From Bolinopsis microptera (lineage: Eukaryota > Ctenophora > Tentaculata > Lobata > Bolinopsidae), in NCBI RefSeq assembly GCF_026151205.1, contig NC_087075.1, forward strand, positions 11,702,303 through 11,766,302: 64,000 nt of DNA, read 5' to 3'. Positions 3,000 through 64,000 of this stretch are shown here, in pieces. The notes beneath the pieces were generated by a model. That model did no database searches. It was not told the DNA's origin and saw only the letters and a program-made list of their open reading frames with translations. Position numbers and translations under genes: made by a program. Every line of letters begins with the position of its first letter. Positions within the stretch are counted from its first letter, which is position 1.

Positions 3000-3730
3000 T
3001 TTGGGAAAAAAATGATTTACCCGAAAATTTTTCAAGTCAAAAATTTTGTAGTCGAAAATTTTATAATCAATAAATTTTCAAGTTTTTCTTGGAAACAACT
3101 TTTGTTCATGATTCATGCAACCCTGATCATTATGAGCCAAAAAATATTTTTTTCGTATTTCGAAGTCGATATGAACGATTTTAGTACTCGAAGGTTCTTC
3201 CTTTATTAATGCGATCTCGGAAGGCAGGCCTCCGCATTCGCAAAATGACCTCGGAAATCGGAGCTCTGCTTTCAGATGTACGTATCGAGAATGACTCGGA
3301 CCGAAAATTTTTTACGTCAAAAATTTTTCAAAGTTTACTGGAAACTACGTTTGTTTCATGTTTCATGCTACCCTTATCATTATGAGCCGAAAAATATTTT
3401 TTTTCGGTATTCGAAGTCCTACTTACCCCTTCGATATACGATTTTTTTTCGGTTTCGAAGTCGATATATGATTTTTGGACTCGAGGGTATCCCATTTGTA
3501 ATGCGATCTATCGGAAGCAGGCCTCCCCTTCGCAAAATGAGCTCTGAAGCGGGAACTCTGCTTCCAGAGGTACCGTATCGAGAACAACTCGGACCGAAAA
3601 ATTTTCGAAAAGGTCAAATTTTCAAAGTTTTTCTGGAAGTTACTTTTAGTTTCATGTTTCATGCTACCTTATCGTTTTGGGCCCGAAATAGATTTTTTTT
3701 GGTTTTTTATGAAGTCCGTACCTACATTCG
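3000..3730. repeat. Degenerate tandem repeat, about 290-bp unit
   Basis: Two full units and part of a third share landmarks in order: runs of AAAATTTT with TCAAG, then TTTCATGnTnCATGC, then ATCATTATGAGCC, AAAAATATTTTTTTTCG, a TCGATAT block, AATGCGATCT and a purine/CG-rich block ending in GACTCGGACCGAAAA. Landmarks like CATGC and GAAAAAATATTTT also occur in the palindrome arms at 34.9-35.1 kb, so the two may be distant relatives of one element family. Confidence 0.6.
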
Positions 3731-12751: not shown

Positions 12752-14389
12752 CACTGTCTTTGTGGTTTATGAATATTTCGATTATTTGTGAGCAAGATGA
12801 TTCGTTTTATCTGGCTTGTCTTAGAATTTGGAAAATAGAAATTAAACTCGGTTTTAAGTTTTGTACTGCTAAAATACCTTAACAATAACAAATAGAAATT
12901 TCAATCAATACAATATAATCTTAAGCACAGAGGTAGACTATATAAAGTCTTTATTAAACACAAATTCGAAATGTGAAAAGTGAATCTAATTACATAATAT
13001 GAGTTCCTTACAAGTATACATGGGGCGGTCATTTTAAGTTTCATTTCGGGAAATTTGCAGAAATATGTCCCTCTTATTCGATAGAGCGTGAGATTAGTTA
13101 TGTCAAGATATAGGCAAACTTTTAGATACATCTTTATCAAATATCAAATTATTATTATTATTAATTTTATTGTTTTAAATAAGTAAATACTAACTCAGAA
13201 ATCAATCAGATTTTAACCTTCGTCAGAAAAATACATCATAAAATTTTAAATATGAGTCAATTCAAAGCAAAGGTAAAAACAAGATTGTAAACGAAATATT
13301 AAGATAATGACACGTTCTAAATCCAAGTCAAGAAATTATTAAATTGAAATGCCTTTCTCAGTATTTTAATGGGGTAACCTACCTAATTGGGGGACTTTTG
13401 ATAATTCTGTCATATCAATGTTTCGCCGGGCATTCAAATGTCGCTTACGGTAAGCCAACTAATTCATTAAATATTTGATTCATTAATTAATTGAACGTAA
13501 AACCATATTTTTGTCAGATACAATAGACTAAAATTCATTAACCAATTTTAATCGAATCGAAACGAAACAAATATTGAAACTCTCACATTTCAAAAGCACA
13601 ATCCTCAATAAAACCACTCAATAAACTCTCGTAGTTCCCGAATATCGTTCCATACTAACCCAAACTAATATGGTTAAATCTACCACAACCTTATATCAGC
13701 GGTTATTTGGGCTTCATTCTAACGGACAAATTGCACTTCATCCATACGTCCTAAGTACTACACTAACAAAGTTCATTCCTCCAAACAACTAATTTATAAC
13801 CACAAACATAAACAACCACAAAGGTAAACAAACCTAATCATTCACATATACATTTTCAGCAAAATGAAACATCATGGTCTTCAATTCCAAACTCATAAAC
13901 TGCACTTCAACTTCTAACGAAACAATCAAAAACAGTCCTCCTTATCTAGGCTTTGTAAGGAGTCCGGACTCTACGGTGCGAGACTCTACAGCGGCAGATT
14001 TTTTGGCACAAAAAAGTTAGGGTTAGGGTTGAGGTTTATGGGTTAGCATTTTGGTTATGATATGGTTAGGGTTTAAAGTTAGAGTTAGGGTTAGGGTTTG
14101 GGAATGAGAATTTTATCTCAACCTAAACCTAACCCTAGTTTTTGCACCGTCAAATTTCCCACCGTCAAGTCTAAGGCCGTAGAGTCCCGGACCCCTTTCT
14201 GAGCCCAGTGTTTTGAAAACAAACCGCTAAGTAGGGGGTTGGGGGAGAGTACCCCTAAGAAGTAACTTAAGTCTACAAATACGGGCACAAAAATGTTATC
14301 AGTTTGTAATGACGTATCAGAGAACCAGCTCGTAGTTTATATCATGTTTAGTGACGTCATAGTTCGGTTGATGACGTCATAGGTATTGC
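12752..14389. other. Intergenic region downstream of the MADD gene
   Basis: No exon is seen. It contains AT-rich sequence and, at about 14018-14135, a degenerate TTAGGG-type tract in both orientations. The MADD 3' UTR must lie at the right side of this stretch. I did not find a convincing polyadenylation signal close to the stop codon. Confidence 0.5.
14018..14135. repeat. Interstitial telomere-like TTAGGG tract, degenerate
   Basis: Several TTAGGG and GGTTAGGGTT units are interspersed with variants, then CCTAAACCTAACCCTAG on the other strand about 80 bp later, so the tract is partly inverted. A cleaner tract lies at 35903-35950. Confidence 0.7.
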
Positions 14390-26300: not shown

Positions 26301-29300
26301 CTTAATACCTATTTGCACCATTCCATTCAACACCAGCAACATAAAAATATAACAAGAACAACTCAAACCTCGAGAAGAAGAGTCTCGCCGGAGAGAGTGG
26401 TCCCCTGGTGAACTAGATAAGAAGTGCGCGGTAGCTGGGACCGCAGCGGTTTCAGGGTCAGCTGGTTCTTGGTTAGGTGCGGTAAATGTTCCTTGATTAG
26501 TCGTAAACGAGGGTTGAACTTTAGGCCGATGTGAGTTTTACCTGGGAAGAAAATTGTGCTGTCATAATATGTTTTTGTGCTAATTTATCATTTATTTTTG
26601 AATAAACAGTAGCAAACTTTTTTGCGAGATTTTACAATTTGAACTGTTAAAAAAATAGATTATCTACTAATTTCGTTCATTGCATGTGTATTTTTTATGA
26701 TGTTATGAAGTAAATATTATCGTAATGATCGTTAAATTAGAACCAAGAATGTTATTATTATTATGTTAAATTAAATGTTATAATTATGTCAAAATCACTA
26801 CCTTCCAATCTGGAGATTAACTTCATGATAGTTTTAGTTTCCACCTCCAGGGCCACCATGAACCCCACTATGTTCTTTATACACCCATACAATAGCTCGT
26901 CTTCATCCGTCTCTATTCGCTGTCTTCCTCGTTTGGAGTGCTTCGTGTATCTGAAATTTGGCTTTTTAAATCATAGTATTCAAAAATTATTATATAATTT
27001 ATATGTGACCGGTAACCGTAAAACCAAATCCAATATATAGGCTTGCCGTATGAACCGTGGAGCAGAAATGACTGAAATTTTTACTACGAACACTTTTATG
27101 TGCAAGTAATCGATGTACTATTATCATGATCATAATCATAATAACACGAAAGATTTGTTTTAATTCTAAGTAAAATACTCGAATAGATCCTAACCTGTCT
27201 TGCATTTCGTGAGGATATCGGTTCATGCCGAGTATTTCCCGTTCCGTGTGTACAGCATCGTAAAACATGCCCTCCCACGTGTCCTCCTTCTCCCACACAC
27301 TCGACCTGGTATACCACGACATCACAACAAAGTGACGTCATCAAATAGTGATGTCATCAAATTCAAATGGTTAATAATTGAAACAAACAATCACAAACAA
27401 TTAGTACAACCTAAAAATAATTCTGCTTACCGAACTTTGCCCAAAATTTCTTCGTACAGATACTTCCGATGTATGTCAGTATCAGGCGGCATGGTGCCAG
27501 ATGCCAGCAGAGATGTTGCTAAGTTCATTATTGAACTCGACTCTTCTGTCGGGGGTGATCCTGACTCGGGTGTTCCTGTTCATTATTTAAAGTTAATATA
27601 ATTAACTTAATAAACTTAATAAATATATATTTTCAAGGTTAAGTGGTCGCGTCAAATTTTGTGTCGGGAATCTTCATTGTTCATGTCAGATATAGTAGCA
27701 AACTATTTTACAGATGAGGCAAGAAGATATCATTATAACGTAGAATTATCTAATTATCTAATTATCTAATTGTGCACTCAATTAACGTCTAAAGAAAATA
27801 ACCAGGAGGGTTGGGACTCCGTTGAAGAGTAGTTTGCTTATCAGTACTGGGATATTGGAACTGAGTGGCCTCTGTCTCCGTGTCCGGTGTAGGAGGACAC
27901 ACTGAGGGCGTCAGGGTAGGTTGGGGAGTGGTGAGGGTTGCTGGAGAGGGTGGGGACCAGTCTGGGTCACGCGGTGAGCCTAGCTTCTGAACAAAGGGAG
28001 ATTTTAGATGAGAGAAAAAAGAAATAGTTCATACTTTCTCTCTAATTTAAGATCTAGGTTTCTAACTCGACTGTATAGTAGGTTGCTAGGAGTATGAGTA
28101 ATACTAAAATATTACTTTTTTAGTATTATTGATAGTCTGAGAAATCTACAGTTGAGTCGACTTAGAAACCTAAATATATATCCAAATTATGTATGTAAGA
28201 TCAGATTTCTAAAGACTAGAATCATTCCAAGGGTTATGATCTAGTAAAGGCTCTGGAGGAAGGACCCTGTTTTGGTTACCTCTGAGGAAGTAGAGGCTGC
28301 AGCCTGTGAGGACACAGGCCGGTTGTTGAGATCTTCACACCCGTTTAGTATCTGCTTTATCTCGTTCACTGCTGGTGACTCTGTAGTTGGAGTTGATGTG
28401 GTTACTAGTGGTTACTAATGGTTACTAGTGGTTAACAATACTTTGTACTGGTTACCAGTGGCACAACAGAACTCTCTAAATTTCTATTTAACAATGTTAA
28501 CTTCTCTTAGTACCTGAGGTGCTTGAAACTGACGATGTTTTCTTTTTCTTCTGGTCGGTTGTCTTGTTTATTTCAACTGAAGCGAGTTATATGTCAGACG
28601 GCTCATTTATTATTATAAACTATATCAAAGTTCAAAATATCTGAAAACAGCGATCCTAAGAACTTTATTGGTAGCTGTCTCAAAACATAAGAAGGTCCTC
28701 AAAAGATAAAACTAAATTTTCTCAAAAAATAACTTCCTGACGGCTCAACACTTTCAAAATCAACAATTTGCCATTTCAACAAAATTCCAGTATATAATAA
28801 TTAAATTAAGTGATGGTGAAGTGATTAGACAACAGATAATTATAAATTAGAGGAAAATTATGATTATTTACTATAACATCTAATAATTATTTACCATACA
28901 TGATCTTATAAAAACTAGAAAATGCTTGCTCACCATAAGCGCCCATATGGCGGGTGTAAGCCACCTCAAGAAGGGTAAAGATAGAGCCTATTCCAGAAGT
29001 GTTAGCTCCATCTCCCACCTGATCTATACCCTTTACTGCGTGTTTTAACAGCGATGCCAAACCTTTGAACACATCCGGTGATATTTGCTGCAATGAAACA
29101 TTAGTTAAATACTCAATCAATAAAACACTCAATTAACTTCGTTGTAAAAATAATAAATCATAATTATTTAAAATGAAATTTCCTTGGTTTTACAGTGATT
29201 TGTAAACGAGTGATAAAGAATCAGCTATCAGAGTAACCATTTAACCGTATTTATGTTTACCTCGTGCTGTATGACGTCACGATGTTGTCTCTTAGTAGTC

Positions 29301-32300
29301 GTACCACTGAGTATCCTATTAGCTACCAACAACCTAATAATATCATTGGTCACTGTAATCACCCAATCAGCGAGTTTGTTAATAATTAATTATAAGATAT
29401 GAATTTATTCATAATTAGAGAATTAGTGTGTTTACACGTGATTACGGTAATTAGCTAATTAATTAATTACCTGATGTTCTCGTCCTGCATGACAGTTGCT
29501 AAACGTTTGTTCTGGTACCAGGGTATACCCACACCATCCAACACATTGTTCACTATCTTACTACAGGATAATAACAATTAGATATTATGAATCAAATAAT
29601 TAAATTTAATTGTAATTAAGTACATGATTAATAAGTTTTTAGACGATTTACTAGGTTGGAATCATTAGTAATGACTACCCACCCTAATCAATAATGTAAA
29701 ACTCATTTGACACAATAATTACAGATACCTCAAGATCTGCACGACAAAGCAGCAGTAATGGAGCGGTAATTGAGCGGTAATTGAGTGGTAATTGAGTTGG
29801 TACCTGATGAAAGCAATGTCTTCAGAGGAGCTGCGAGGAGCAGTGTTGGTCATCTCCCCATTAGACCTGGTCCTGGTCTCACCAAGAAGTCTCCTCTGGA
29901 GAATGGGGCTGGAGGTGTTGCTGGTGGCGGGGGAAGTGTAGCCTGGGGAGGGGACAAGTTAAAGGGATTTACAGATTTTAATCCTAATCTAGAATGTTTG
30001 GATCAGAAAACTTAGAAGACCACACCTTTTCATGAGTTCAAATTCCGAAATTTGGCCTGTACATAATAATCAGCCGCACACTCTGTGTGATTTAATGAAC
30101 CTACCAGAGGAATGAGCAGATCTAGGTTTAGTGAGCCGGGAGTTGTCGGTATCGTCTCCTAGGTCTATCGATAGGAGGGAGTATCCTCTGGCAAACCCAA
30201 ACCTGTCCTGGTAAATATTGTTTGTTAATTATTTTACATCAGGTAGTATATTAGTAATATATTTCTGGCTTCACGTTACATTTTGGGTTCACAGTTGTAA
30301 ATAAGATTTTCGCATGTCTGCCAATTTTAGTATTTCTGGGGGAATTGATATTTCCTCTTCTGAGACTTTGGAATCATGGATCGTTTTGGACCAAGTCAGA
30401 TAGATATCTTATCTGGTTCTTATGGGTTATAATAAACTATATAACCACAATTAAAAAACGAGGAATGTCACTCTCTAAAGTTTAGAGTTTAGAGTCTAAA
30501 CTTTAAAATCATGCACAATACAAAATATAATAGAACTTTGTAAATGATCAATATACTTTAAATTGACTGGAAAACAACAAATAGCAAAGTGGTAGCTGAA
30601 GTAAATAGGATATGTTTTATAACACGAACGATAAATTACATGCGATTTCAGACTGCATCTAAAGAAATTGTGTGGCTGAAAAAGTAATCTTGTCAGCTGG
30701 CAGTCAGCTCAAAGGTTAAGCAACTGAATAGTTCCAAAACGTTTTGAGGGGACTATTAAAATTAAATCAGTAGCAGAAACTATGCTTCACTTGACGTTTA
30801 GCTAAAAGAAGTATCGTCGGTGTAGGTGGTTTCCAATTTGGTCTGGTCCAATAAGCGTGAGTGTTTGGGAGTGATAGTCGAGATGTTTCGTTTATCGATC
30901 TCTTGAGTCGGTCGATCATGATAGATTACTAGTGAAGAAATGAGAGTCTCCACTATTTCGTCTCTCATTTCGTCCCCAGTAATCTATCATGATAGTCGAG
31001 AGTGTTAGATCAGTGAAAGAGTATTCTGCACCACAAACAAACACGCACGTGCACAAACACGCGCGTGCACAAACACGCACGTGCACACTAAAAACATAGC
31101 GCACTACACATGATCCGTACTGGAACTCGAAGACGCTCGAAGCCTCGCTGGTCCTGCGGCTGCTGGTCTCTGACCGGAGTGCTGCAGAAGGGGGTCTGAT
31201 TGATAGAGCGTTGATAGCCGGTTCCATAGAGCATTCCGCGGTGCAGGGTAGACTTTGGGTCGATCCAGACGGGGACCATTGTTCAGTTAGTATGGCTAAG
31301 TTTTTTTTAATGAGAGGTAGGGATTTTTGTGCGACTGTCTTTTGCGTTTTGGCGGCTTCTTCGAGGCTGATTGCTCTAAGAGTCAAGAGAAATTAGGTAT
31401 AAATTTTGAACAGATTGGAAATGAAACTGCACATTTGAGGATACCATAGCGAGCTGCCATTCGCGTCACTGTTCGTCTGTTGACAAGCTATTAATATACT
31501 GACAGAGGTTAAAGCTCATGTCAGAAGCTGTGCATAGAAGAAACGGATAAATTAATATAAACGTGTTCAAAGCATGATTAGTTGAAATCAATCGGATTCC
31601 AAAACGGCAATCAAATATCCTGGCCTAAAAAAACGTTCATATCGTAGACTCAATTATGGATTGTCTGGAATTAAATCAACCCAAGCTCCAACAGAAATAT
31701 AAAATGCATTAATACCGTACCTATACGGGTTGAAATCATCTACCAGCGGATTGCACGGAGTGATGTGGAAGGAGGTGTCCGTGGGTTCTAGGGCAATGTC
31801 ACTGATGTGGGACGTGTCCACTGTTACTCCGGGTTGGACTGCTAATCGGGCTATCTCCATCAGAGTCTTACCTGGGTGATGTGGTTGGGATATTGAATCT
31901 AGGGGGAATTATGTACGGAGGATTAACGGAGGATTGTTTTTTACACTTAAAAAAAGTAACTATAAGATTTATCTTAATTATTCAAGAACTTTCAAACGTC
32001 ATAAAATTAGTATAAGTCTCAAAAGATCCGTCCGAACACAAGCTCTCTAACTTTACCCTGAATGTTAACAGACTTGGCAGTCTCTGGCTCTCCTACCACA
32101 CCACTTCCTGGATCACTCTCCGCAATTGAGGAGGTACTCCGTGATTTGGTGCCCGTGTGGGGAAGCATCTCAATACCTAGTGTGTTACCTGCCGGACAGA
32201 TGCTGTGTTCTATAAACTCTACCTGTGGGTTGTTAGCTTGTTATTGTGGGGAAGCATCTCAATACCTAGTGTGTTACCTGCCGGACAGATGCTGTGTTCT

Positions 32301-35300
32301 ATAAACTCTACCTGTGGGTTGTTAGCTTGTTATTGTGGGGAAGCATCTCAATACCTAGTGTGTTACCTGCCGGACAGATGCTGTGTTCTATAAACTGTAC
32401 CTGTGGGTTGTTAGCTTGTTATTGTGGGGGAGCATCTCAATACCTAGTGTGTTACCTGCCGGACAGATGCTGTGTTCTATAAACTCTACCTGTGGGTTGT
32501 TAGCTTGTTATTGTGGGGAAGCATTTCAATACCTAGTGTGTTACCTGCCGGACAGATGCTGTGTTCTATAAACTCTACCTGTGGGTTGTTAGCTTGTTAT
32601 TGTGGGGGAGCATCTCAATACCTAGTGTGTTACCTGCCGGACAGATGCTGTGTTCTATAAACTCTACCTGTGGGTTGTTAGCTTGTTATTGTGGGGGAGC
32701 ATCTCAATACCTAGTGTGTTACCTGCCGGACAGATGCTGTGTTCTATAAACTCTACCTGTGGGTTGTTAGCTTGTTATTGTGGGGAAGCATCTCAATACC
32801 TAGTGTGTTACCTGCCGGACAGATGCTGTGTTCTATAAACTCTACCTGTGGGTTGTTAGCTTGTTATTGTGGGGAAGCATCTCAATACCTAGTGTGTTAC
32901 CTGCCGGACAGATGCTGTGTTCTATAAACTCTACCTGTGGGTTGTTAGCTTGTTATTGTGGGGAAGCATCTCAATACCTAGTGTGTTACCTGCCGGACAG
33001 ATGCTGTGTTCTATAAACTCTACCTGTGGGTTGTTAGCTTGTTATTGTGGGGAAGCATCTCAATACCTAGTGTGTTACCTGCCGGACAGATGCTGTGTTC
33101 TATAAACTCTACCTGTGGGTTGTTAGCTTGTTATTGTGGGGAAGCATTTCAATACCTAGTGTGTTACCTGCCGGACAGATGCTGTGTTCTATAAACTCTA
33201 CCTGTGAGTTGTTAGCTTGTTATTGTGGGGAAGCATTTCAATACCTAGTGTGTTACCTGCCGGACAGATGCTGTGTTCTATAAACTCTACCTGTGGGTTG
33301 TTAGCTTGTTATTGTGGGGAAGCATCTCAATACCTAGTGTGTTACCTGCCGGACAGATGCTGTGTTCTATAAACTCTACCTGTGGGTTGTTAGCTTGTTA
33401 TTGTGGGGGAGCATCTCAATACCTAGTGTGTTACCTGCCGGACAGATGCTGTGTTCTATAAACTCTACCTGTGAGTTGTTAGCTTGTTGTTAAATAATGT
33501 TAGCTTGTTATTGTTAACCAATATAACAGTGTAACAATGCTAAATATGTACGAGTCGTCTCGATGAGATGATAAATCAGCATTTATACGAGTAAGCATTT
33601 TAGCTTTTAAGACAGACCTGATCACTAAACCATATCAGCTTGTCTCCGATCAGTGTTTGATCGGAATTCCCGGATACTATTCTATGTACGACTGTGTTGA
33701 GGGGGCAAACTTCACTTTCACCAAACGCTTGAAGACACTGCAAAAAGGTGAAACATTAATAAAGGAACGAAATGGGAAAACTGATAAAGGCACTTTCAAC
33801 ACGAATCTGCATGCAATGAGTCCAATATTCTCATTACAAATAATCTTAAAATTTGCCACTTGATTATCAGATAGAATAGTGAATGTCTACTCACGCTAGT
33901 CTCTGACAGTCTCTGAAGGAACAAGGAGGGTTTTCCGGTGGAGCAATTTCGGAGGAAAGCGTTCCTCTGTAGGTATGTGATGGGACGTGGGAACAGTTTC
34001 ACTATCTCAGATGATGCTTAAACTTGCCTGTGGGTGGTATGGCTTGTTATTTAGGCTGTACAAATTGTTTGATGTGATTTTCCATGATATTTTTGTCTCC
34101 AAAGCTAGAACAAAATATTTTAGCTGTTAGCGGTTAAACACATAATTCAGGACTGGAGTTATAAAGTTTAACAAAATACAGTAAGCACGAACTATCAACA
34201 GTTTAATCATTGATAAATCCATCGGCCTAAATCTGACCTAGAACATTGGCAGACATGAAGAACTTTATCATAGCCACTCTGATCTCAACATCAATCGTAT
34301 TGAGGTCACGTGATCCTCCAGGTAAACATTCCCTGGGGTTTCTCCGAGAGTACAATAGTTGCAAACACTGAAATTTGGTTTGTTAAATAAGGGATCATGT
34401 TCTAAATTGAACGGATAACTCGTTTAGTCGAATTTACACAGTCTAACATTCTGTTGTACGCAAAGTTGTTTCTGTTTTGATGAACGACCTGTGTCTGCTG
34501 ATTAGCTCATTACTCCAAACGTACACCAATGTGATGTTTGAGAAATTGGTAAAATAGTACAGGGAAATCCGTCTGAAAAAATCGATCTGCTGACACACGA
34601 AGCTTACAAAGGATTTTTGACGTTTTTGAGTCCTAATAGGTGCCCTCTATGGCTGACCAACTTTTCCAAACTTTTCCACGTGGCTTAAGGCCACTTTTTG
34701 CCACTTTACCACTTTTTACCACCTTTCTTGTTTGTCGAATATCTTTAGTTGTGAACATCGTAAAAGGTTGCGAATCAATCGAGTGTGTTCATATTATCAG
34801 GAAGAAAAACTTTTGTTCTAACAATTTTTACGTCAGATAATAAGTTAATTGGATAATTCTCAATTAACCAATTAGCAAAATTCTAAAAAATTTTTATTGG
34901 CTAAAAATGATCGGAATAGCTTAAAACACGGAGAAAAGTAGTTTTTAGAAAAAATTTGAAAATTTTTCACTTACATTTTTTTTTCGAGACTTCGAAAAAT
35001 TTCGAAAATTCAAAATATTTTTTTCCGCCAAAAGTGATCAAATTGCATGAAACGCGGAGAAAAATGATTTTCAAAAAAAACTTAGTCAATTTTTCGTTTC
35101 AAGAATACTTAAATCACCAATATTTGTAGTTGGAGTTTAGTAAATCTCGGCAGATTTTAGTAATAATCAGGAATTACTAACTCTAAGTGGAAAGGTCTGA
35201 AACCTTAATACATATCGAGCTTAATACATATCGAGCTATATTCAATCACAATACGACACAGTACGTGTATATTATATGGCTCTTAATGAGGTTTATGAAA

Positions 35301-38300
35301 CGCTTTATACCGTGAGAAACCCGGTATAGAGAGATTTTACAGTTTATCACGAAAACGTCTACTTGGTCTCATGGCCCATTTACAGTTCGAAGAAGGGCAA
35401 GAACAGATCAGGGAAACTGAGGAACAGCCAGGTCCAGGAAGCAAGTGTAAATACACCTTCCAACGTCTACTGTAACTGTTTTGTATTGTACTGCATACCG
35501 CTTCATTTGCGGGATACCTCAAATCACCCCCATATGTCAGGGTCGGCTAAAAGTAAAATCAACAAGGGTAACATACGGGAAAGGGTAAGATTTAGATACG
35601 AGTACAGTGTCGGGCAAGGGGTAGTAAAGAACCGGTAATAATTAATTCAGTGAAATGTTCCACGAGAGTCAGGATATTTTGGAAATTGCTAATAGAGACA
35701 GATCCTGATCAGGAAGGATTGTTAATGTTATTGAGGATGTTGATTTGAAATCCGGACGTCCGCGTCGTGAAGTAAAAATACAGGTTCTTCCCGCAGGATA
35801 TTCGGGGCCCATGATGATCAGCTCGGGATTAATGTGGGACAGATCGAAGACTGACAACTGAACCCAATTGAACCTAGTTCCCACTAACCAATCAGCTTAA
35901 TTGGTTAGGGTTAAGGTTAGGGTTAGGGTTAGGGTTAGAGTTAGGGTTAATCTAAATGTCTAAATTGGGTTCAGTTGTCCGGTAGCCCGCTCTTGCGAGT
36001 TGACATTCTAAGCTTTTTGGTCTTTTCTTGCCTTCTTTGAGCTGTCAAAGAGCCATGAGACCAAGTAGACATTTTCGTGATAAAATGTAAAACCTCTCCA
36101 TATCGGGCCTCTCACGGGAGAAACGAGAAGTGTACGGTATAGAATATTTCATATACCTCATTAAGGGCCATAATATAATATACACGTGTTGCATTGTGTC
36201 GTATTGTGATTGAATATAGCTCGATATGTATTACTACTTAGTTTACATCACCCACCAAATGCAATATGAACAACTCGGTTTGATTGTTGAGGAAAAGAAG
36301 AGGTCTGGTAATACAGGTAGGCCGGTTTAGATTAGCACAATTGACGGTACAGAGAGGTTTCATTTATTACAAATCTTAACCCCACTGATTCATCATTGAA
36401 ATCAATAAAATGACAGTACAGCAGGCTATCGTTTCTATCTTGACTGTGCCATTGGTGCAGTTTCTGTGAAAATCGATAAGGCTGTATTGTAATTAGTTAT
36501 GAAACTCTTATATCGCGATCGTATGGTTAAACTTAACGTTTTTCAGTTTCAGACCTTTCCACTTAGAGTTAGTAATTCCTGATTATTACTAAAATCTGCC
36601 GAGATTTACTAAACTCCAACTACAAATATTGGTGATTTAAGTATTCTTGAAACGAAAAATTGACTAAGTTTTTTTTGAAAATCATTTTTCTCCGCGTTTC
36701 ATGCAATTTGATCACTTTTGGCGGAAAAAAATATTTTGAATTTTCGAAATTTTTCGAAGTCTCGAAAAAAAAATGTAAGTGAAAAATTTTCAAATTTTTT
36801 CTAAAAACTACTTTTCTCCGTGTTTTAAGCTATTCCGATCATTTTTAGCCAATAAAAATTTTTTAGAATTTTGCTAATTGGTTAATTGAGAATTATCCAA
36901 TTAACTTATTATCTGACGTAAAAATTGTTAGAACAAAAGTTTTTCTTCCTGATAATATGAACACACTCGATTGATTCGCAACCTTTTACGATGTTCACAA
37001 CTAAAGATATTCGACAAACAAGAAAGGTGGTAAAAAGTGGTAAAGTGGCAAAAAGTGGCCTTAAGCCACGTGGAAAAGTTTGGAAAAGTTGGTCAGCCAT
37101 AGAGGGCACCTATTAGGACTCAAAAACGTCAAAAATCCTTTGTAAGCTTCGTGTGTCAGCAGATCGATTTTTTCAGACGGATTTCCCTGTACTAAAATAG
37201 ATAATCGAGACATTCAAATGGGGTAAAATTAGCTGCTAAATCGATCGGCAAAAAGTGCGCGGCTCAGATTGATGTTTCGGAAAATGGTGCCGCGAAAAAC
37301 TTTTCTAGTAATTTTGTCCTTGCGCGTTACCTAAATCAAATGCTTAGAGAGGTTCTGTCAGATTGAAATTATTCTGTCTTCTTCTCACTGCTCATCGTAG
37401 CTAATTTAAGCATAATCATACCAACTATTGAACAGAAAATACAAAGATTGGCTACCTTTCTGAGCTCCTGACTAATTTCAGAGCCTTGCGGTTCAGGGAA
37501 GGTTGGCATGGGCGTTCTCCTCAGGATCTGAAAGAAAGTAGGTAGCATTAGCGACGGCAGGTAATGTTTATAATCTATAATGCGTGGTCAGACTTCGTGT
37601 GCTTATAACTAACAGGCGAATAAAGATTATGATCGAGGTGGCATTTCTCTACAGTTTAAAACTTACTCCAATTACTTAATATTTGATACATAACATTTGT
37701 ACGATTTAATGTAACTAAGATATAATGTAAATGGAGGTTACCATACTATTAACTATTACCTTTCCTGTGTCAATATTTACGAATACAACGTCTTCCGGAA
37801 CTTCCATTTTGTTTACTATGAAGAATGTCGAGGGAACCCCAAAGAGAAATGGCATCGGTGACCTCAATATCTGAAGTTAATTTATTAAGTCTTCAGTCAG
37901 TTAATAAATTCTATAGATATGTTAACAGATGGTGTTGTATTGTTAATAGGTTCAATAGGTAGGTAGGTTCTGATAAGATCAAGATCAATCTGAAACTTAT
38001 CTAATTGCCATAATATCAGTCTTCAATTGTGGTACAAACAACTTTAGTTTCTGTATTGCTACTCTTTTTTAGATGGTCCGTTCGAGTAATGTCAGCGGTG
38101 GAGACGGTGGTGACGCCAACTCCAACATATTTAACCCGAAGAAGAAATCATTTGTATCAACAACCATTGCATTAATGATCAGCTTCGCCACATTTAACAT
38201 CCGTGGGCTCGGTGTTCAGCAAGATGATAGCCTACATAGTAAACGTGAGTTACTAGGATTAGACTGTGAAAAGTACAATGTCGACATCTGCGCTCTGCAG

Positions 38301-44300: not shown

Positions 44301-47300
44301 ACAAATACCACCACAACCACCACCACCACCACCACGACCACCACAACCACCACCACAACCACCACCACCACCACAACTACCACCACAACCACCACTACAA
44401 CCACAACCACAACCACAACCACCACCACACATTGTTAATTAACATTAATTACAATTTATCATGATCAGATATACTCCCTTATTATCAACTGCCTCAACTC
44501 CTAACACAATATCTAATTTTACAGTAAGAATTACAATAGAACCTATCTACCCTCCCACAGCTTCCTAATCAACCGTCATTAAATCCACCAGCAGAAAATA
44601 TACACTAATCAAACCCAAGATTACAACACTGCTTCCTGATTGGTTGGCTGGACCACGTGATCAGGAGATCTGGCCGCTGATTGGTGGAAACCCACGTGGA
44701 GTGTGGCGAACAAATGGAACATTGCTTTTGTCTGATTCTGGGTGTAGTATGTTGTATCCAGGTTAAGATACATTGTATTTTATACATTGTATTTATACAT
44801 TGCACAGTGTACACACACTACTAGTATCAATTACTCAGTTTTATACACTAGTTACTGTACTATATAGTTCAAGGGGGCTATATTTATGAGTCGCATTTGA
44901 AACTGATTTCTCTTGGAGAATTTCTCTTTACACTCTTAACTTGCGAACAAATTGAAGCAGCAGACTTTAGGCTAGAAACTTTATTGAATAGAAATAATCA
45001 TTCCACGTAACAACGTCTTCTTCAGTTCTGTAATAAAATTGTTAAACATGTGTAAAATTAACGACGGAAAGAAATTTAAAATTTTTTTTTTTTTCAACAG
45101 TTTGTAATAAGATTCGCAACTACATCAAATCTAACAAACTCCCCATCAGAGTTATTTTTACACCTGGTAAGAAGTTACAGGACATCTTCTGCCGCTCTCG
45201 TCCACTGGATAAGAAGACTTGTGACCTTGGTAACCCTAACAATTGTGAGATCTGCCCTAGACTCACAGGAACAACATGCTCAACAAAAGGAGCTGTTTAC
45301 TTAGTTACTTGCGAGTTATGTGGTAAGAGATACTGTGGGGAAACTGAGAGAAGCCTCCATGCTCGTCTTATGGAGCACAGACAGGCTGCTAGGAATCCTA
45401 GAGCACATCCAGAGAATGGGGTTGGACAGCACTACGCATCTCTACATCCTAACCGAACCCCAGTTTTATCTTTTAAGTTACTTGATTTACAGAGTAAAAC
45501 TGTTCGTAGAAAGATTGTAGAAGCGATGTATATATTGAGATTAAGTCCTGAAATGAATGATCGTTCTGAGTTGAGTTATTTATACAAATATTTAGTCGAT
45601 ATTTAACTAGTAAGTAATGTATTGATAGGATTATCTTGGATAGTAACCATGACAACCGAGTTATCGTTGCTATAGTGCTTAGTTTTATCAATAGTTTTTG
45701 CACATGAATTGTGAATTCTGAACAACCAGTTTTACGTTTACTAATTAGTATAGTATCATGAGTAGTACAGTATTTAGTTGTTTTAGCTTACATTTCTTCT
45801 TGTCGTATTTTTTGTTGTTTTGAATTTTTTGCAATTACATTTTTTGGGTCATATTTCGTAAATTTTATTTTTCTGTTTTTGTTTTAATGTTATTTTAAAT
45901 TTCTTTCCGTCGTTAATTTTACACATGTTTAACAATTTTATTACAGAACTGAAGAAGACGTTGTTACGTGGAATGATTATTTCTATTCAATAAAGTTTCT
46001 AGCCTAAAGTCTGCTGCTTCAATTTGTTCGCAAGTTAAGAGTGTAAAGAGAAATTCTCCAAGAGAAATCAGTTACTGTACTGATAAGTTAGTTGGTACAT
46101 GAGAGGAATACAAGAGTAAACTGTTACTGTATAACGTAGCTTAGCTTCACTAGATGTAAATAATAATAATAATACACTTCTAATACAAGGAATAAGTATT
46201 TAAGTTTGAGTAGAAATTATGAGTAGAAATTATGAGTAGAAATTATGCTATTACATATATGTAAATGAGCAATCATGTATACATTAATTATTGTAGAGTT
46301 AAAGTAACATGATCATTTCAACATTGAACTCAATCGGAATGTTTAAATTCTCCGGGGAATGTGGGATGTACATTCTTCAGTGTAGGAATTTGCCCGCTCA
46401 ACAGTTAGTATTATCAGATGGCCTGCTAATTCGAATTCTCAAGGGAAAAGCTAGGTCACGCAAGGCTACTGTACATTTTTTTTGTATCGGGCTGCTTAAT
46501 TAAAAGTATTTATACTGGATATCCCGGCCCACATAACATGTGCATGAGGCAACATTTAAAGAATTTGTTAGGTTTTCGAAAAATTACTCAAGAGATTAGA
46601 TTTTACACTAAGGAAGGAAATATTGATTTTTTGGCTGAAATGCCATTATTTCAGACTAGTTTAGAAGTGTAGTTTAATATAAACTAGTGCAGTTTTTGAG
46701 TAGCCAACATTTTGAGTATCCTGATAATCATCAACTAATTCCCAATAAAGGTTAAATCTCAACAACACCACGTGACTATTACAACACCACGTGACTATGA
46801 CAACACCACGTGACTATTACAACACCACGTGACTATGACAACACCACGTGACTATGACAACACCACGTGACTATGACAACACCACGTGACTATTACAACA
46901 CCACGTGACTATTACAACACCACGTAACTATTACAACACCACGTGACTATGACAACACCACGTGACTATGACAACACCACGTGACTATTACAACACCACG
47001 TGACTATGACAACACCACGTGACTATTACAACACCACGTGACTATTACAACACCACGTGACTATTACAACACCACGTGACTATGACAACACCACGTGACT
47101 ATGACAACACCACGTGACTATGACAACACCACGTGACTATTACAACACCACGTGACTATTACAACACCACGTGACTATTACAACACCACGTGATTATTAC
47201 AACACCACGTGACTATGACAACACCACGTGACTATGACAACACCACGTGACTATGACAACACCACGTGACTATGACAACACCACGTGACTATTACAACAC

Positions 47301-48977
47301 CACGTGACCACCTGAAAATAAGTAAATTACCCGCTGCTCCAGAAGTAGACATGTGATGACCTCCAACGTTCCCTCCACTCCCAGTAACTCTAACGGTAAG
47401 TGGACACAGTACTCCGCGAAGGGGAGCCGCGCGGTGTCCGGGTAACAGAAGTTTATGATGGGTGACACCACGTAACATTTGTTGAACAGTCGTAGACAGA
47501 GCCTCTCTCCCTGGGATATATAACACATAACATAGGGAAATAGTTTTAAAGGTAATCCGTAACACAAGGAAATAGTTTAAAACATAACACAAGTCCGTTT
47601 GTTGATCCGGATGCAAATTAGAGTAAAAATAGAGATGTAATTATAGCACAGGTAATGATGTAATTATAGCACACAAACACAAGCTACACCCCATGGAATG
47701 TCCAACCAGACAGTTCCATTGTAACACTAAAACAGAACAATATTTTGCACAGCAGTTCACACTCTACAACACACTTTTATTTAGACTACGTGTATTAACC
47801 CAACCCGCTGAGCTCTACCTGTTGGTACACACTCAAAGGGGCTCATATTACATGGAGGGGGCAAGACACAGTGCAATACAGGTCTAGGTACTGAAGTAGG
47901 TCAACCCCAGCCCCAGCCCCTAGCCCCACATATAACTTAATGATGAATCTGTAAACATTTCAATAATTAAGCTTGGGGAGCCGCTCATCACATATTATAG
48001 GAAGGTGTACTGGCCCCCAACAGATAATATGATGAAATGAGCGCACTTAGTAGAGTAACCCCCTTCTGATATGGTAATCATCTCCACCCCACCCCCCCCC
48101 CCCACCCCACCTCAAGTCTTGAGAGAATTTTAATGAGCATGCAAGTTGCAACATAACATTTTGTGCAGTTAGGATTTAAGTCGCGGTAAAACATTTAGTG
48201 TCACCTATTCCGTAAAAAAGTTGAAGCATTCTGACAAAATTTGATTGGCTGAAGGATATCAATCGCAACAATATTTTGAGGATTTGCCTAGAAGAAATTT
48301 GGCAATAAGGATCATTTTCAAACACAGTTTTAAGAACGATTAAAATAATGCGATATTTTGAATGCATATCATGGCGTGTCAGCAGCTCTTGTTATATAAG
48401 TGTGGTCCAAAAAATATGCTTTTAGAAAAGTTTAATGAGCATGCAGTTGCGGTAAAACAGTTAGTGTCACTTATTCCTATAAAAAAGTTGAATCATCCTG
48501 TCAAAATTCGATTGGCTGAAGGATATCAATGGCAAGAATATTTTGAGGATTTTACTCGTGCCCAAGGCCTAGAAGCAATTTGGCAATAGATATCACAGTT
48601 TAAAAACCAATTCAAATGCGTTTTGAGTTTTTAAATGCATATTATATGCTGGCAGGCCCCAATATATTAGTCAGTAGCGTTTGCGGAATAAGTGTCGTCC
48701 CGAAAAAGAGATGTTTATTACAATATCACAGAAAAATTCAGGAAATTTGCTTTCAGAGTTGAAATCTAGGAATGAGAAACGATAAATCTAGCAAAATTGT
48801 ATTGTGTCCATTTAGGGATCAGGGGGCAAAGATCCGAAAATGTTGATTAGATAAACTTACCTCTGTCGAGGGAGCTGGACTGTTCATGAGGTTAACAAGC
48901 CACTCCTTTAGTTCAGGTGCAATATCTAGGCTTGTACACGCTTCTATATCAAACCCTGTAATGTTTAAATTTGTGAA

Positions 48978-61718: not shown

Positions 61719-61849
61719 CTGTGGTCACGTGACGTCAAGTGTGTGAAACGACGAATTAAACTTTATAATGTTGCAAATTTATTATGAAGGAGCATTGTAA
61801 ACAAGTCTATAAGTATAAGCATTACATGAACATATTCCTTATTACGCTC

Positions 61850-64000
61850 TAAGTTATTAATTAAAGAACCTCTCAGTCTCACCCTCTCAGATTTTCAACG
61901 CTCCGTTCATTTTTATAGCTTTATTATTTTTATCTTTTTACTACACTTACTAACACGTGCTTTACAAAGGAGCAATAGTTTGCGGAGGCATTCTAGAACG
62001 GTATATATTTTAGCTTTCAGTTTCTGTTTCATTATCTTAAAATTTATTCCGCTTTTATTTTTATTTCCACTCTCGATTCCTTGCTAGCAGTCCGGTTAAT
62101 TTAGTACCTTTAGTGGGTCTCATTTTATCATTAGCTCTAATTAAAGAACCTCTCACCCTCTCAGAAAACTCCGTTTGGAGATATTCATATTCCTTATTAC
62201 GCTCTAAGTTATTAATTAAAGAACCTCTCAGTCTCACCCTCTCAGATTTTCAACGCTCCGTTCATTTTTATAGCTTTATTATTTTTATCTTTTTACTACA
62301 CTTACTAACACGTGCTTTACAAAGGAGCAATAGTTTGCGGAGGCATTCTAGAACGGTATATATTTTAGCTTTCAGTTTCTGTTTCATTATCTTAAAATTT
62401 ATTCCGCTTTTATTTTTATTTCCACTCTCGATTCCTTGCTAGCAGTCCGGTTAATTTAGTACCTTTAGTGGGTCTCATTTTATCATTAGCTCTAATTAAA
62501 GAACCTCTCACCCTCTCAGATTTTCAACGCTCCGTTCATTTTTATAGCTTTATTATTTTTATCTTTTTACTACACTTACTAACACGTGCTTTACAAAGGA
62601 GCAATAGTTTGCGGAGGCATTCTAGAACGGTATATATTTTAGCTTTCAGTTTCTGTTTCATTATCTTAAAATTTATTCCGCTTTTATTTTTATTTCCACT
62701 CTCGATTCCTTGCTAGCAGTCCGGTTAATTTAGTACCTTTAGTGGGTCTCATTTTATCATTAGCTCTAATTAAAGAACCTCTCACCCTCTCAGAAAACTC
62801 CGTTTGGAGATATTCATATTCCTTATTACGCTCTAAGTTATTAATTAAAGAACCTCTCAGTCTCACCCTCTCAGATTTTCAACGCTCCGTTCATTTTTAT
62901 AGCTTTATTATTTTTATCTTTTTACTACACTTACTAACACGTGCTTTACAAAGGAGCAATAGTTTGCGGAGGCATTCTAGAACGGTATATATTTTAGCTT
63001 TCAGTTTCTGTTTCATTATCTTAAAATTTATTCCGCTTTTATTTTTATTTCCACTCTCGATTCCTTGCTAGCAGTCCGGTTAATTTAGTACCTTTAGTGG
63101 GTCTCATTTTATCATTAGCTCTAATTAAAGAACCTCTCACCCTCTCAGATTTTCAACGCTCCGTTCATTTTTATAGCTTTATTATTTTTATCTTTTTACT
63201 ACACTTACTAACACGTGCTTTACAAAGGAGCAATAGTTTGCGGAGGCATTCTAGAACGGTATATATTTTAGCTTTCAGTTTCTGTTTCATTATCTTAAAA
63301 TTTATTCCGCTTTTATTTTTATTTCCACTCTCGATTCCTTGCTAGCAGTCCGGTTAATTTAGTACCTTTAGTGGGTCTCATTTTATCATTAGCTCTAATT
63401 AAAGAACCTCTCACCCTCTCTAAGTTATTAATTAAAGAACCTCTCAGTCTCACCCTCTCAGATTTTCAACGCTCCGTTCATTTTTATAGCTTTATTACTT
63501 TTATCTTTTTACTACACTTACTAACACGTGCTTTACAAAGGAGCAATAGTTTGCGGAGGCATTCTAGAACGGTATATATTTTAGCTTTCAGTTTCTGTTT
63601 CATTATCTTAAAATTTATTCCGCTTTTATTTTTATTTCCACTCTCGATTCCTTGCTAGCAGTCCGGTTAATTTAGTACCTTTAGTGGGTCTCATTTTATC
63701 ATTAGCTCTAATTAAAGAACCTCTCACCCTCTCAGATTTTCAACGCTCCGTTCATTTTTATAGCTTTATTATTTTTATCTTTTTACTACACTTACTAACA
63801 CGTGCTTTACAAAGGAGCAATAGTTTGCGGAGGCATTCTAGAACGGTATATATTTTAGCTTTCAGTTTCTGTTTCATTATCTTAAAATTTATTCCGCTTT
63901 TATTTTTATTTCCACTCTCGATTCCTTGCTAGCAGTCCGGTTAATTTAGTACCTTTAGTGGGTCTCATTTTATCATTAGCTCTAATTAAAGAACCTCTCA
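61850..64000. repeat. Higher-order tandem array, 629-bp repeat of 355+274 bp subunits
   Basis: The shared core (CTCTCAGATTTTCAACGCTC ... TAGCAGTCCGGTTAATTTAG) recurs at least seven times. Units alternate between a long form with GAAAACTCCGTTTGGAGATA plus a second TTAATTAAAGAACCTCTCAG and a short form lacking it. Long-form starts at 62113 and 62742 are 629 bp apart, and 63371 continues the register but with a shortened insert (313-bp unit). Copies are almost identical. The array runs past the window end. The 82-109-codon open frames in each unit are repeat artefacts. Confidence 0.95.

Follow-up and report, generated by a model that had tools for sequence, protein, structure and literature searches.

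Fifteen tandem splice acceptors in a minisatellite at an exon boundary of a DENN gene in Bolinopsis microptera

A boundary between an intron and an exon, provisionally exon 14, of a DENN gene in Bolinopsis microptera lies within a minisatellite that sets 15 near-identical splice acceptors in a row. The array is found on the minus strand of the window, by which we mean the whole 64,000-nucleotide stretch analyzed (contig NC_087075.1, positions 11,702,303 to 11,766,302); all positions below are those of the window unless another stretch is named. With a probability of about 0.6, we read it as a recently expanded minisatellite of the kind called ‘mirages’ in lancelets, seeded by chance over the exon 14 acceptor, where the exon-nearest acceptor is chosen and units 1–14 leave as intron. 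Most likely, the array is nearly neutral, a side effect of a genome rich in minisatellites, and its length probably varies. We infer the acceptor in use, the near-neutrality, the recent expansion, and the length variation. An original prediction, made from the sequence of the window, had recognized the repeated acceptor; the present analysis adds that a 34-nt piece of the unit is in frame with exon 15, that arrays of this kind have already been described, and that further cases occur in the same genome.

Anatomy of the Array

On the minus strand, positions 32158–33492 consist of 15 head-to-tail 89-bp units in perfect unit-by-unit register, reported by Tandem Repeats Finder (TRF) as 32156–33488, period 89, 15.0 copies, 98% matches, and 0% indels. 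The original prediction had placed the array correctly, with limits (32157..33480) that differ from those given by the units, and its account of the unit as about 24 bp of intron end plus about 65 bp of exon start, acceptor included, agrees with the unit table. Each unit joins 24 nt of intron end (CAATAACAAGCTAACAACCCACAG) to 65 nt of exon start (GTAGAGTTTATAGAACACAGCATCTGTCCGGCAG/GTAACACACTAGGTATTGAGATGCTTCCCCA), and carries a candidate branch-like CTAAC motif, a CACAG acceptor, and, within the exon start, an internal CAG/GTAACA. The acceptors are spaced by exactly 89 nt in all 15 units, with the first exon base running from 33468 to 32222. The donor-like CAG/GTAACA, predicted to lie 34 nt past the acceptor, is present at that distance in 15/15 units with no substitution. 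Units start CAG/GTAGAG, the single exception being CAG/GTACAG in unit 13. The features of the region, all on the minus strand, are as follows.

33618..33737, minus: exon 13, 120 nt, ending GATCAG/gtctgt and encoding CLQAFGESEV..IGDKLIWFSDQ; placed by splice sites and a frame open to its neighbors
33493..33617, minus: intron 13 ahead of the array; its end, as read from the sequence, carries a further copy of ACAAGCTAACA
32158..33492, minus: minisatellite, 15 x 89 bp, from TRF and the unit table
32247..33492, minus: units 1–14; an exon running from any of their acceptors to the exon-14 donor meets a stop (14/14)
32158..32246, minus: unit 15, the sole unit with an open long exon 14, first exon base 32222
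32189..32222, minus: 34-nt cassette in unit 15, VEFIEHSICPA(G), in frame with exon 15
32183..32191, minus: internal donor CAG/gtaaca, score 9.28, second of 20
32057..32222, minus: exon 14, long form, 166 nt, with a weak donor AGG/gtaaag (4.13, 18th of 19)
31721..31871, minus: exon 15 (GKTLMEIARLAVQPG..), beginning GTAAGA after CAG

Eleven substitutions separate the 15 units from their consensus, four of them in the outermost unit 1. Units 2–15 differ among themselves by a mean of 1.0 per pair, and the mean distance from unit 1 to them is 4.0 bases. The further copy of ACAAGCTAACA at the end of the pre-array intron 13 is, by its sequence, a likely source of the intron part of the unit.

A search of the 264.65-Mb assembly with the unit and its flank gave 15 matches, all inside the array, although the search skips common words and does not prove uniqueness. 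By the same type of DNA search, with the same limit, 2,767 bases around the array matched only themselves, revealing no second copy or array-less haplotig in the assembly. Rfam returned no match over 31000–34500 at E 0.1. The idea that RNA structure hides the decoy acceptors was rejected: a 401-nt piece of the array is less structured than its shuffles (z +2.23).

The Host Gene

The array-bearing gene is, by its predicted protein, a DENN gene. Four upstream exons, when joined, encode a DENN domain (Pfam PF02141, E 2.5e-27), and a PDB search matched DENND1B (E 6.9e-12). Exons 11–16 give one open frame when joined via unit 15. These exons appear to resemble human MADD (here RVAMIKFFMSANVL, KLFPRPI, and LIGDKLIWFSDQ), and the gene looks like MADD, the Rab3 exchange factor; the choice of MADD over other DENN genes rests on this apparent likeness. 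Pfam found no family, and so no dDENN region, at E 1 for exons 11–16 joined (317 residues searched), and PDB gave no match for exons 11–14. Exons were placed from open frames, splice signals, and human MADD, and the splice site matrices used below depend on this placement. The numbering of exons is provisional, as large gaps, e.g., between exons d and 11, may conceal others. Hence, where the original prediction spoke of exon 14 of MADD, the DENN gene stands, the name MADD is tentative, and the number 14 is provisional. Vertebrate MADD carries a conserved neural micro-exon (PMC12626424); no link to the array is claimed.

Reading Frames Through the Array

The unit length of 89 is 2 mod 3, and the original prediction had reasoned that upstream acceptors would shift the frame, with about 15 near-identical acceptors standing before the one that gives a continuous frame. 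There are 15, and when exon 13 is joined to a given unit onward and then to exon 15, the product meets a stop for units 1–14 and is open for unit 15 only. The 166-nt exon 14 and the internal 34-nt piece are equal in length modulo 3, and, therefore, the join of exon 13, the 34 nt, and exon 15 is also open. The cassette is the same in all units but unit 13, where a single substitution changes E to Q; a micro-exon taken from any one unit would therefore leave the mRNA open. The frame tolerates exactly one copy between exons 13 and 15, as none or two to six lead to a stop; one to four copies preceding the long exon 14 all stop as well. A short form can thus be reached equally from any of the 15 units, the long form directly from only one.

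Strength of the Splice Sites

Splice sites were scored with a weight matrix built from the same gene (19 donors and 21 acceptors, leave-one-out, with the donors of exons 16 and 27 excluded), and the scores are those of a small sample. The internal donor CAG/GTAACA, at 9.28, comes close to the top real donor (9.32) and exceeds the exon-14 donor (4.13). In the span 26800–48000, 18 of 1465 GTs reach the score of the internal donor; 15 are the unit copies, and the other three include the real donor of exon 19 and the start of exon 15. The unit acceptors score between 8.35 and 8.47, and 8.35 ranks fourth of 21. Seven in-frame open acceptors are in the list: unit 15, at 8.35, and six others, all exon-internal, between −8.15 and 0.44. 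Joining exon 13 to a unit rebuilds a donor, CAG/GTAGAG, that scores 6.81 (seventh of 20), compared to 5.78 for the donor of exon 13 itself.

The 132-nt tail of exon 14 past the internal donor scores 17.4 bits as coding, a value reached by none of 1894 overlapping intron windows, 215 of which are open. Because the tail is coding-like, full-length exon 14 is probably made. As judged from the sites and frames, both the short and the long forms of exon 14 look possible.

Choice Among the Acceptors

In the explanation we prefer, a minisatellite would have arisen by chance across the exon 14 acceptor and then expanded. The spliceosome would pick the unit 15 acceptor by exon definition, since this unit alone forms, with the downstream donor, a stop-free exon of ordinary size; units 1–14 would be removed as intron. 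Single units would be expected to yield some 34-nt product as a minor isoform, still in frame. In favor of this explanation stand the regular array, its single open acceptor, the coding-like exon tail, the many minisatellites of the genome sample, the three similar arrays described below, the lack of a clear excess of exon-like edges at arrays, the lancelet reports, and the poor folding of the array.

Several observations weigh against this explanation. Unit 1 has an acceptor as strong as that of unit 15, at a distance of 149 nt from the exon-13 donor; 15 of 18 other measured introns in the gene are 125–357 nt long, and, thus, proximity favors the wrong acceptor. The internal donor, as noted, outscores the donor of exon 14. 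Finally, seeding may not have been entirely random: among 16 arrays of the gene span, typed from TRF with sub-rows of one array omitted, five end 30 nt or less from an exon edge against a random mean of 1.4 (P 0.0098, for a statistic picked afterwards), whereas an alternative statistic, an exon edge within one period of the array, gives 2 against 1.1 (P 0.30). We regard the proximity of array ends to exon edges as a hint.

As an alternative, the array might supply interchangeable micro-exons, the main or regulated product being exon 13, one 34-nt cassette from any of the 15 units, and exon 15. This is unlikely, although the frame results fit it well (one cassette is open, and none or two to six copies stop), as do the rank of the internal donor, second of 20, and of the unit acceptors, fourth of 21, and the presence of just three GTs of that strength elsewhere in the 21-kb span. 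Moreover, only 55 nt separate adjacent cassettes, and as the shortest measured intron is 125 nt long, two neighbors would be difficult to use together; units two apart, however, leave 144 nt, enough for an intron. A cassette would be in frame by chance one time in three, a 34-nt exon is difficult to define, and the coding-like tail argues that the long form probably exists.

In a second alternative, exon 13 would splice to an early unit, the rebuilt CAG/GTAGAG would splice to a later one, and so onward to unit 15 in a ladder of recursive steps that leaves no trace in the mRNA. The necessary donor is indeed rebuilt at the upstream junction, as exon 13 ends in CAG and the units start with GTAGAG (GTACAG in unit 13), and it is stronger than the donor of exon 13 itself. 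Every step would take out a multiple of 89 nt, giving the same mRNA except for unit variants. Competition between a rebuilt and an internal donor is also the published layout of recursive splicing exons (RS-exons; PMC6224609 and PMC8605326); these share with the array an exon that rebuilds a donor at the junction and a competing donor downstream, but the array has 15 tandem copies and is known from sequence alone. Still, the rebuilt donor scores 6.81 against 9.28 for the internal donor 34 nt downstream, the exon junction complex is reported in PMC6224609 to repress such donors in human cells, and it is not unusual for an exon to start with GT after AG, as exon 15 of the same gene also does. 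We consider such a ladder very unlikely. A broader proposal is likewise unlikely. Under it, a minisatellite, one of many in the genome, would have made either 15 interchangeable micro-exons of which exactly one must be used, or a recursive ladder with as many as 15 rungs; the balance between the short and long forms of exon 14 would then depend on copy number.

The original prediction went further and held that the array may force nested or recursive splicing, or act as a copy-number-dependent switch. Neither follows from these data: the sequence also permits exon 13 to be joined straight to unit 15, and normal splicing is reported for comparable lancelet arrays (PMC3087553 and PMC3902484).

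That the array damages or weakens the allele, with upstream acceptors being used and the resulting stops leading to decay and reduced gene output, is highly improbable. All 14 upstream acceptors do give a stop, and the nearest lies at a normal intron distance; however, the identified exons keep an open frame, similar arrays occur in apparently two more genes of the same genome, and the report of normal splicing in lancelets (PMC3087553) speaks against it. An assembly artefact in copy number is barely credible, as the units, though near-identical (1.0 difference per pair among units 2–15), carry variants scattered along the array, the outer unit has diverged, and the assembly has many such arrays.

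Relation to Known Systems

Lancelet mirages are minisatellite-like tandem duplications of intron–exon boundaries, described for Adh3, the globins BflGb6 and BflGb9, and troponin C; repeats in PGBD5 have been compared with them (PMC3087553 and PMC3902484). In the same papers, mirages are said, on the basis of reverse transcription PCR (RT-PCR), not to disturb regular splicing. The exon 14 array may be classed with them by its anatomy: its tandem units lie over an exon–intron boundary, the exon-nearest unit is continuous with the real exon in frame, and the inner units are homogenized while the outer unit has diverged. The lancelet cases likewise duplicate a boundary, at the acceptor side (BflGb6) or the 3′ boundary of the exon (BflGb9), bear AG/GT signals in many units, and have homogenized inner units with the outer unit apart. 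In contrast, the exon 14 array has 15 units at 98%, compared to three or six at 81–100% in BflGb6, and its 89-bp unit is shorter, against 150–160 bp; as a further difference, it holds an internal donor that yields an in-frame 34-nt cassette. The available portions of the open-licence literature on boundary repeats name no mirage outside lancelets, and in a host that is not a lancelet, mirages would be wider than that literature reports. The assembly size (264.65 Mb) and G+C content (about 0.37) appear atypical of lancelet genomes.

Two other systems come close. In a potato RdRp gene, an intron was gained by tandem duplication across an intron–exon boundary (PMC4974935). The duplicate likewise comprises the 3′ end of an intron and the 5′ end of an exon, and the new intron runs from a cryptic exonic donor in the upstream copy to the downstream acceptor. 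Potato has two copies and an intron supported by transcripts, whereas the exon 14 array has 15 copies and candidate sites. Fission yeast genes, cited in the same paper, contain multiple 24-bp exonic AGGT duplicates with introns that span several of them. They share with our array several tandem AGGT units, with splicing between units in yeast, but their repeats are exonic rather than at an intron–exon boundary, and the units are few.

Further Arrays in the Same Genome

A genome sample of 264 kb was surveyed, made up of the window and 20 stretches of 10 kb, of which L009 and L010 were taken as neighbors of the window and the other 18 at even steps. Minisatellites are abundant in it: 51 arrays with a period of at least 15 and at least three copies, counted after overlapping TRF rows had been merged, cover 24,748 of 264,000 bases, or 9.4%. 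Nine candidates among the top 20 rows were examined; three more boundary-spanning arrays were accepted and the other six were not.

L009:6229-7480 (with the exon to 7579), minus: 25 tandem donors in a 50-bp unit of 8 exon nt plus donor, directly after a coiled-coil-like exon
L010:3467-3978, minus: 13 tandem acceptors in a 32-bp unit, ahead of a coiled-coil-like exon at 3559-3467
L022:8800-9281 (array from 8986 on), plus: six tandem donors in a 48-bp unit of 11 exon nt plus donor

The L009 case, about 6–7.5 kb past the end of the window, mirrors the exon 14 array. Its GTGAG is intact in 25/25 units, and its six core splice columns hold none of 27 substitutions against 3.2 expected, too few to claim selection. 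The coiled-coil-like exon of L010 is in phase with the next exon, at 3051, and the L010 and L009 cases, on the same strand and about 6 kb apart, possibly belong to the same gene; Pfam gave no family for the two coiled-coil-like exons. In L022, the next exon has a weak DUF4139 match below the cut-off (E 5.3e-5), with a match above it about 3 kb on. The exon-nearest site is open in all three, and the others tried lead to a stop: 12/12 in L010, 5/5 in L022, and 3/3 tried (of 24) in L009. Among the 18 evenly spaced stretches, L022 alone held a boundary array, which gives just a rough idea of the rate.

Arrays in this sample were not clearly enriched in exon-like edges. A score of 26 or more was reached in 4/204 array tests and 11/400 random ones, and a score of 16 or more in 14/204 and at least 20/400, respectively. 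Both edge modes were tested for the arrays and only the acceptor mode for the random controls, from which arrays and exons were not removed. The four array tests at 26 or more are the boundary cases of exon 14 and L009, exon 16 running into a small repeat, and a coding-like proline-rich repeat in L019; L022 (21.9) and L010 (16.3) fall under that line.

Arrays such as these offer a natural experiment in how the spliceosome decides among splice sites that hardly differ. In order of synthesis, the correct donor in donor rows is the first made and the correct acceptor in acceptor rows is the last; the same genome offers both, and the wrong choices tested leave a stop. Boundary minisatellites have also been proposed as raw material for new introns.

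Other Repeats and Elements Nearby

The DENN gene has other repeats close to its exons. A 19-bp x 28.8 array at 46762–47308 starts about 22 nt into the intron past the donor of a DENN exon (47331), small arrays lie within about 35 nt of exon edges at 29751–29796, 28398–28434, 27744–27771, and 27331–27362, and a 16-bp x 3.2 repeat at 31037–31087 sits just beyond exon 16. On the plus strand, an open frame at 45046–45603 resembles, by eye, a retroelement end with a GIY-YIG-like motif. Interstitial telomere-like TTAGGG runs occur at 35903–35949 and 14016–14102, and a satellite with 355/274/313-bp spacing crosses the window end, from 61831–64000 into L009:77-1500.

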